Source: Chloroflexota bacterium
GTDB taxonomy: Bacteria; Chloroflexota; Limnocylindria; Limnocylindrales; CSP1-4
DNA length: 64,000 bases
Assembly (NCBI GenBank): GCA_015478725.1
Contig: JADMIG010000005.1
Location: 1-64,000, forward strand
Direction of reading: 5' to 3'
Each line of letters opens with the position of its first letter. Positions within the stretch are counted from its first letter, which is position 1. Below the pieces are notes generated by a model that had not been told where the DNA came from, did no database searches, and saw only the letters and a program-made list of their open reading frames with translations. The position numbers were made by a program, and so were the translations under genes. Positions 30,596 to 32,459 of the stretch are shown here, in pieces.

Positions 30596-30670
30596 TGGTT
30601 GCGGGGGACGGATTCGAACCGCCGACCTTCGGGTTATGAGCCCGACGAGCTGCCGCTGCTCCACCCCGCG
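30596..30670 (-). tRNA. initiator tRNA-fMet (CAT)
   Basis: Read on the minus strand, the RNA starts CGCGGGG and ends CCCCGCA-A-CCA. The anticodon loop CTCATAA gives CAT. Two initiator marks are present: the unpaired C1-A72 at the acceptor end and three G-C pairs (GGG/CCC) at the base of the anticodon loop. CCA is encoded (30596-30598). The D-loop is two bases shorter than in E. coli. Confidence 0.95.
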
Positions 30671-30676
30671 TTGGGC

Positions 30677-30705
30677 ATGATAGGGAGGCGGGAGGGGCGC
30701 GTCAA
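30677..30705 (-). promoter_or_regulatory. promoter of initiator tRNA
   Basis: TTGACG (30700-30705), a 17-base spacer and TATCAT (30677-30682) on the minus strand, six bases before the tRNA 5' end. This is a near-consensus sigma-70 promoter. Confidence 0.8.
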
Positions 30706-30875
30706 ACTCGGGTCCGAGCCCAGGACGGCCGCCGCACGCGGCAGGCGAGACCCGACGGGCGAGCGGCGTCGGGCGCGGCGCCAAGGGCCGCGCCCGGTGC
30801 GCGTATGAGCTACTCCGCCGTCGGCCGTGGCCGCGCCGCCGTCGGCCGCGCGGTGGCCCGCGCCGTGGGCCGCGT

Positions 30876-31104
30876 ACGCACCGTGTGCGTGCAAGCTCGC
30901 CGAAGCGATGCTACGGGCCGGCGGGCGGCACGCCCGGTGCGTCGCGACGACGCACGGTGCATCCAAACGATGTTCGTCGCCACGCGTACGCAAGACGTGC
31001 GCCCGGCACGCATCACGTGCGTCCCCGACCGCACGGCACTCGGGGACGACCCGGGCCGGGAGCCGCCGGAGACGGCCGCGCCGCCAAGTACGCAACCGAT
31101 GCGT
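30876..31104. repeat. cluster of ACGCA/TGCGT palindromes
   Basis: Three palindromes of identical form ACGCA-N5-TGCGT start at 30876, 31008 and 31090; the last extends to TACGCA/TGCGTA. A reverse-order palindrome, GTGCGTCG-CGA-CGACGCAC, lies at 30937-30955, and a lone ACGCA at 30988. The 520-base region between the tRNA promoter and the phosphoesterase stop (30706-31193) holds no recognisable gene. The cluster may be a set of operators or RNA hairpins. Confidence 0.75.
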
Positions 31105-31108
31105 AGGC

Positions 31109-31163
31109 GGATTCAATGCCAGGCGAACGGCTCGCGCAGGCGGGTCGGGCGTGGATTCAATGC
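31109..31163 (+). repeat. direct repeat GGATTCAATGC
   Basis: The 11-mer occurs at 31109-31119 and 31153-31163, 44 bases apart, in the non-coding stretch before the phosphoesterase 3' end. Two copies only; not a CRISPR array. Confidence 0.6.
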
Positions 31164-31193: not shown

Positions 31194-32399
31194 TCAGCCG
31201 CCGAACAGCCCGCGCAGGTCCGTCGCGCCGCACGAGCCGCCGAGGCAGCCGAGACCCCAGGCCTCCTCGATGGTGCGGAGCAGCGAGTAGTGGTTGCGGA
31301 ACACCCCGTCCGTGCTGCCGGCGCGAACGAGCGGACTGATGACGAGGGTCGCCACGCGGCCGCCGCCGTGGACGTTGGAGGTGCCCTCGTCGACGGTGAT
31401 GAAGAGGACGCTGTCGGCGAACGCCGGGCTGGCGACGATCCGCGGGACGAAGTCCGAAAGGAATCGGTCCCCGGTCGCCACGGAGCAGTCGTGCATGTCG
31501 TGGCACATGTTCGGGATGATGAGCTGGAAGTCCGCTGCGGCCGGGTCGAAGTGGCTGAAGTCGGTGATGTTCGCGCAGCGCTTCGTGTCCCCGGAGATGT
31601 TCGTGAAGCTGATCGCCGGTTCGTGCTTCCGGGCGTACGTGCCGAGCCCGTCCGGGCCGCCGTTCGCGCTGTAGCCGGTGTAGCAGCCGAGCGGCACGTT
31701 CTCGGCGAAGACCCGCCAGGTCTTCCCACGCGCCTCGAGCTGGTCGACGAGGTTCCGGCCGGGCAGGTCGTGCGACAGATCGTCCGTGACCCCCTGCGTG
31801 GATCCGCTGAACAGGGCGATGTAGTTCGGCTCGGAGGGGTGAGTCTCGGCGTACATGTCGGTGAGGCTCGCGAACCGCGTCCGAAGGCTGTTGAAGTACG
31901 GCGCGGCCGGGTTCCCGACGAGGTCGCCGTACGACTTGTTCTCGAGGACGATCTCGTAGATGTGGCGGAAGGCCGGAACGCCAGCGACGGGTGAGACGCT
32001 CGGGGCGGCCGAGAGCGTCGGCGCGGGCGTCGGGCGGGGTGTCGGCGCGGGCGTCGGGCGGGGTGTGAGAACGCCAGACGTCGGACGGGGCGTGGAACGG
32101 CTCGTGGGCGTCGGCCGGACGGGCGTCGACGCGGGCGCGCCGCCAGGAGGACCACCCGACGGCCCGGAAGACGCTGCGGGGGCGAGCGTCGCTGGCACGC
32201 CGGTGGTCGACGCAGCGGTCGATGCGGTGGTCGTCGGGCTCGGCGGCGACCCTGCCGGGAGGATCGATGCCGGCGACACCGCGGCCCCGATCGGACCGTC
32301 CGATGCCGGTGATGCGACGGGCGCCGACGGCGCGGCGCAGGCACCCGCGACGAAGACGATCACGAGGAGGACGGCGAGCGCGGCGGGGCCTCGGGTCAC
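31194..32399 (-). CDS. secreted phosphoesterase (acid phosphatase/phospholipase C family) lipoprotein
   Basis: This 401-residue protein has a lipoprotein signal (ALAVLLVIVFVAGAC) followed by a 100-residue Ser/Thr/Pro/Ala linker with PTPAPTPRP repeats. The catalytic domain of the phosphoesterase family (PF04185-like) starts about 130: HIYEIVLENKSYGDL, ETHPSEPNYIALFSG, LIIPNMCHDMHDC and FITVDEGTSNVHGGG carry probable metal ligands. GTG 32399 has GGTGAG upstream. It would cleave phosphate esters or phospholipids outside the cell. The Pro-rich linker suggests it must reach across the envelope. Confidence 0.87.
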   Translation of the reverse strand: MTRGPAALAVLLVIVFVAGACAAPSAPVASPASDGPIGAAVSPASILPAGSPPSPTTTASTAASTTGVPATLAPAASSGPSGGPPGGAPASTPVRPTPTSRSTPRPTSGVLTPRPTPAPTPRPTPAPTLSAAPSVSPVAGVPAFRHIYEIVLENKSYGDLVGNPAAPYFNSLRTRFASLTDMYAETHPSEPNYIALFSGSTQGVTDDLSHDLPGRNLVDQLEARGKTWRVFAENVPLGCYTGYSANGGPDGLGTYARKHEPAISFTNISGDTKRCANITDFSHFDPAAADFQLIIPNMCHDMHDCSVATGDRFLSDFVPRIVASPAFADSVLFITVDEGTSNVHGGGRVATLVISPLVRAGSTDGVFRNHYSLLRTIEEAWGLGCLGGSCGATDLRGLFGG

Positions 32400-32459
32400 C
32401 TCACCAGGGTGACACGCTGACGCGATGAGCACCGCCGCGGCGACCACACCACGATCGTC

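Follow-up and report, generated by a model that had tools for sequence, protein, structure and literature searches.

Doublets of intergenic palindromes are usually explained as single-stranded hairpins that are moved by RAYT enzymes. REPINs, which are inverted doublets of REP sequences, show preferred end-to-end distances of 71 and 110 bp in Pseudomonas fluorescens (PMC3116915). Among the Chloroflexi, one species, T. roseum, is known to have GTAG REPs, and CGTC REPs are without a known transposase (PMC3733652). In the internal eliminated sequences of Paramecium, a helical length period has been explained by looping between transposase-bound ends (PMC3408717).

Here we analyse a cluster of palindromes in a 64,000-nucleotide stretch of a Chloroflexota bacterium (GCA_015478725.1, contig JADMIG010000005.1, positions 1 to 64,000; hereafter the window), together with the dispersed family to which it is assigned below. 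Like REPINs, this family has short inverted palindromic ends, an intergenic location, interiors that are less conserved than the ends, and preferred distances (PMC3116915). In contrast to REPINs, however, it comes with no RAYT that we could find, its interior does not fold, its copies are far fewer, its distances form a ladder with steps of 10.7 bp and are not confined to one or two values, its GTA tag has the opposite polarity, and extra copies lie at 50 bp. With GTAG- and CGTC-tagged REPs it shares palindromes in the range of 20-40 bp, an unpaired tag at one end, dimers and a frequent position behind genes, while it differs in the GTA at the 3' foot, the low copy number and the helical ladder (PMC3733652). 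Conserved ends, unrelated interiors and a helical length period recall the Paramecium sequences, but these are eukaryotic germline DNA cut by a domesticated PiggyBac enzyme and have no sequence relation to the present family (PMC3408717). Finally, looped operators of the LacR/GalR type likewise consist of paired palindromic operators that depend on helical phase (PMC1762422, PMC4899725); these regulate particular promoters, whereas here many unrelated loci, a near-identical duplicate and a distribution that is patchy between genera are seen. The initial annotation of the window covered a single locus; the important part is the dispersed family with its spacing rule.

Results

The cluster occupies DNA that a codon-usage gene call classifies as non-coding, and its parts and surroundings are as follows (coordinates in the window, strand, description).

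30875..30894, plus: left end palindrome TACGCACCGTGTGCGTGCAA, centre 30883, facing right; 16.8 bits with a matrix trained without the window sites; 3 mismatches to TACGCRCCNGGYGCGTNGTA
30927..30954, no strand: weak second right-facing copy GGCACGCCCGGTGCGTCGCG, 5 mismatches, 52 bp from the left end, membership doubtful; overlaps the inverted TGCGT-N7-ACGCA
30987..31006, plus: poorly matching palindrome TACGCAAGACGTGCGCCCGG, centre 30995; 1 mismatch to ACGCAN5TGCGT, poor match to the full consensus
31007..31026, plus: poorly matching palindrome CACGCATCACGTGCGTCCCC, centre 31015; exact ACGCAN5TGCGT, 10.9 bits
31086..31105, minus: right end palindrome TACGCATCGGTTGCGTACTT (minus-strand reading), centre 31097, facing left; 19.1 bits with the matrix made without the window sites
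30875..31105, no strand: whole element; facing pair with centres 214 bp apart and more palindromes inside, in the orientation of the family
30596..30670, minus: tRNA-Met (CAT), a neighbour outside the element; identified by eye as initiator from three G-C pairs in the anticodon stem
30677..30705, minus: tRNA promoter-like TTGACG-17-TATCAT, similar in relatives and outside the cluster
31194..32447, minus: neighbour gene, putatively phosphoesterase-like by eye; stop codon 88 bp from the cluster

The positions given in the initial annotation hold for the three exact ACGCA-N5-TGCGT palindromes (starts 30876, 31008 and 31090), for the inverted TGCGT-N7-ACGCA (30938-30954) and for a half-site at 30988 that had been listed as isolated; this last ACGCA is the head of a fourth palindrome with 1 mismatch to ACGCAN5TGCGT, ACGCAAGACGTGCGC. 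The nine half-sites and their stated excess over expectation were likewise confirmed. Local statistics were computed on 854,377 bases (∼855 kb) of the same genome, which were fetched as stretches. No other 300-bp stretch of this sequence reaches nine half-sites, the second-densest cluster having 7, and three order-3 Markov simulations of the same size gave at most 5. The spacing is specific: there were 10 ACGCA-N5-TGCGT sites, against 0-2 for each other spacing from 0 to 15. As these stretches had been picked for holding N5 sites, the whole-genome count is the fairer one, and it gave 11 sites, 3 of them in the window cluster, against 2 for the backward control.

A longer consensus was derived from the other genomic sites. 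The unit is a 20-bp asymmetric imperfect palindrome, TACGCRCC-N-GGYGCGT-N-GTA, with the GTA on one side only. Allowing up to 2 mismatches and counting both strands, this consensus occurs at 18 places in the genome of the window (G000) and at more than 30 in MGR_bin394 (G010); it is also found many times in CF_16 (G048), and the backward controls for these three genomes gave 0-1. In the congener G001, the part that has been sequenced showed no such site. In a pattern scan across 84,980 species, repeated matches were confined to Chloroflexota, and most other matches were single and chance-like. MGR_bin394, MGR_bin265 (G126) and MnB_4 (G127) carry the family, as does CF_16 among the relatives, and one further Chloroflexi record (L121) holds one locus with the same layout, so that the family as found here amounts to five Chloroflexota genomes plus a single locus. 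The exact core was detected in 7 of the 126 genomes of the order; in G040, G087 and G089 it was single, unpaired and in gene-like sequence. Viral contigs gave 3 matches and no pairs.

When the window sites were withheld from the matrix, both window ends were still among the 21 hits above 16 bits in the 855 kb, where permuted matrices gave 0.57 hits on average and the reversed matrix gave 1. Since both ends rank among these held-out hits and face each other in the usual orientation, the window cluster very probably belongs to the dispersed family. Apart from the palindromes, no long repeat was common to the window cluster and other loci. A CRISPR array would consist of near-identical direct repeats with unique spacers; the units seen here have diverged, point towards one another and mostly come in groups of 2-3, and the Rfam CRISPR matches nearby fell far under the gathering score. 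A core motif, GAGCGTGGA, had been seen by eye in several genomes; it was inconsistent in the genome of the window and is not claimed. Our literature search found no paper that describes this element or that reports REP spacers in phase with the helix.

The arrangement of the units follows two rules. Firstly, in all five genomes units stand head-to-head in pairs with the GTA inward. Secondly, neighbouring units of the same orientation keep a distance of exactly 50 bp in 17 of the 23 instances, and a further same-orientation copy often lies 50 bp outside a facing pair. Two 50-bp-spaced units also lie in the second-densest half-site cluster of the 855 kb (C1:29935-30350, L058), which sits directly behind a dehydrogenase-subunit gene. 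In MGR_bin394, a contig end (C8, L039 1-150) holds three identical 50-bp units in tandem, which is either a true array or an assembly artefact.

The distances between the centres of nearest facing pairs fell into the groups 72-73, 101-104, 112-116, 123-126, 135-137, 147 and 155-158 bp, with additional values of 170 and 173 bp. An automatic search yielded 29 non-redundant pairs, in which the fourth of these groups ran from 124 to 126 bp. Among periods from 6 to 20 bp, 10.72 bp fitted these pairs best (R = 0.70; P-value 5e-5 relative to jitter, the lowest value that 20,000 trials can give). A first Rayleigh test had used hand-picked pairs; the automatic test, with its smaller R, is our main figure. 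A fit of period and phase to G126 and G000 also predicted the held-out G127 (P-value 0.0096), and G127 with G048 and G010, the last two counted once each (P-value 0.0008); for this held-out test the pair set was compiled by hand, with the 173 bp in G127 resolved as 123 + 50 or 73 + 100 via weaker intermediate sites.

The interiors of the copies are largely free. In G126 they were as unlike each other as shuffled DNA, and elsewhere they were mostly unrelated, apart from one pair in G000 and several copies in G010, the interiors of which were homologous, as they would be in a MITE. Their predicted folding showed no excess over shuffled interiors (mean z -0.32 ± 0.17). Because helix phase is kept while the interiors are free and unfolded, these data point to proteins that would bridge two sites on double-stranded DNA across a short loop, and not to single-strand or RNA hairpins. 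Operators, a DNA-binding nucleoid site and RNA hairpins had all been offered as options for the cluster. A predicted protein-DNA site is the best reading, with the motif nearly limited to non-coding DNA, while RNA hairpins are not favoured given the lack of excess folding in the interiors and a spacing that follows the double-stranded pitch.

The window copy itself is degenerate, and its palindromes exceed the usual 2-3. Its centre distance of 214 bp fits the ladder only as 114 + 2 x 50, an arithmetic that is suggestive only, and the palindromes that lie between the ends, at +52 and +112, are weak. The palindromes centred at 30995 and 31015 are only partly accounted for, as is the inverted TGCGT-N7-ACGCA.

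We further examined the genomic setting of the family. The motif is not equally common in genes: 42 of the 45 element loci were wholly non-coding. Where both neighbouring genes could be called, they were co-directional at 18 loci, convergent at 8 and divergent at 5, and many copies are found behind genes. In the genome of the window, the neighbours, as judged by eye, included permease, dehydrogenase-subunit, glutamine-synthetase-like, urocanase-like and GGDEF/EAL-like genes.

Two copies in this genome (C1:31114-31282 and C3:72900-73068) share 92% identity over 169 bp at unrelated loci. Target-site duplications, one mark of a MITE, were not evident by eye at the flanks of these two copies, and they are the only near-identical pair in this genome, which indicates that recent movement is rare. 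The urocanase-MFS spacer in the genome of the window contains an element, and the orthologous spacer of the congener is short and without one, although the two spacers differ by more than the element alone. As judged from these genomic comparisons, the duplicate at unrelated loci, the patchy occurrence between genera and the relative without one copy point to a mobile element.

Two further loci in the same genome deserve mention. At C3:70554-72920 (L077) there is a long GGDEF/EAL-like gene for which the element copy at C3:72900 apparently supplies the stop codon, as if the 3' end of the gene had been replaced. At C7:54784-55830 (L088), two family palindromes at a distance of 1.03 kb flank a membrane-protein gene and face each other across it, and these may be either chance neighbours or a larger element; the cargo of this pair comprised the membrane protein only, with no transposase.

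Discussion

Our slightly preferred reading is that the family is a REPIN/BIME-like miniature element, the ends of which would be paired on double-stranded DNA by a putative protein, and that the window cluster is a degenerate copy of it. Our analysis shows the family with its rules of orientation and 50-bp spacing, its phasing on the helix, the near-identical duplicate and the relative without a copy; a protein, its class, synapsis and transposition are inferred in the following way. Each palindrome would be occupied, on double-stranded DNA, by a dimeric DNA-binding protein; this is probably a transposase or a recombinase that is supplied in trans. The bound ends would then be joined over a short loop, which needs both sites on the same face of the helix; this proposed requirement of looping would account for interiors that are free in sequence but constant in length modulo one turn. 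Copies would come to rest in intergenic DNA, in many cases behind genes, and would decay there. Several observations sit less well with a mobile element: looping host proteins would give the same phasing, the two middle palindromes of the window fit the full consensus poorly, its 214 bp requires the added 2 x 50, and the urocanase-MFS spacers, the flanks without visible duplications and the single near-identical pair have been described above.

Between the ends, hardly anything except the length modulo one turn is conserved, which means that a mechanical constraint on a protein-DNA complex may be read from sequence in an uncultured group. With a spacing that follows the helix and no RAYT found, either another enzyme would move such elements or a host protein would loop them. 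We are evenly divided on whether one-face ends, free interiors, a built-in 50-bp end repeat and the missing RAYT together define a class of mini-element or looping site that is new for bacteria.

The main rival explanation, which we regard as unlikely but serious, is that the sites are host operators or chromosome-architecture sites, at which a tetrameric or bridging protein would form short loops in the manner of LacR or GalR for regulation or nucleoid organisation. Helically phased palindromic sites, as expected of looped operators, are indeed what we found, and phasing together with palindromic dimer sites is what a looping protein needs; unconstrained interiors and intergenic position also agree with it. 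However, the neighbouring genes seem unrelated in function, promoters are not favoured in the 18 co-directional, 8 convergent and 5 divergent settings, one near-identical duplicate occurs at another locus, and the sites are patchy between genera and absent from orthologous positions.

A REP/REPIN system that is moved by a RAYT via single-stranded hairpins appears improbable. The likeness is real in that short imperfect palindromes form inverted doublets in intergenic DNA at characteristic distances, as in PMC3116915 and PMC3733652. Our search for an autonomous partner covered the RAYT family, and no Y1_Tnp domain (PF01797) was detected in the five element-bearing genomes, whereas control genomes were positive; as these five are fragmented drafts, this absence is not final. 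Since no RAYT was found in them, we do not assign the family to the standard REP/REPIN systems despite the likeness. GTAG REPs have their tag at the 5' foot of the hairpin. Here, the GTA(G) lies 3' of the palindrome, the interiors do not fold into one hairpin, and the spacing tracks the double helix.

Slightly less probable again are RNA-level elements, such as bidirectional terminators or stabilisers of mRNA 3' ends. These would suit the many copies behind genes, and the window stretch does fold somewhat better than shuffled sequences (z -2.5 and -2.8), but the gain in folding energy comes from the palindromes themselves and not from the interiors, a helical spacing period is not expected for RNA, and the tRNA is the only Rfam match that passes its score.

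A link with the initiator tRNA, upstream of whose promoter the initial annotation had placed the cluster, is not supported. The cluster is upstream of the tRNA, starting ∼170 bp upstream of its promoter-like sequence. Nevertheless, in 13 relatives with the same tRNA the cluster was absent from every one, related sites lie beside unrelated genes, and the tRNA promoter is separate from the cluster, with similar TTGAC..TATCAT/TAGAAT sequences in most relatives inspected. That the cluster is an operator of this tRNA is contradicted by these relatives, and we consider it very improbable. A permease gene adjoins the initiator tRNA in most relatives fetched.

A chance cluster, for which a 71% GC genome with its eye-catching short GC-rich palindromes might be blamed, is the least credible explanation of all, being contradicted by a density that no shuffle or simulation attains, by enrichment specific to spacing and orientation, and by the held-out matrix hits.

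Both flanks of the window copy carry repeats of other kinds. Between the tRNA promoter and the element, the stretch 30735-30873 is GC-rich, with near-repeats of CGCCGTCGGCCGCG and nested inverted repeats. Just beyond the right end of the element, an 11-bp exact direct repeat, GGATTCAATGC, is present at 31109-31119 and 31153-31163, 44 bp apart.
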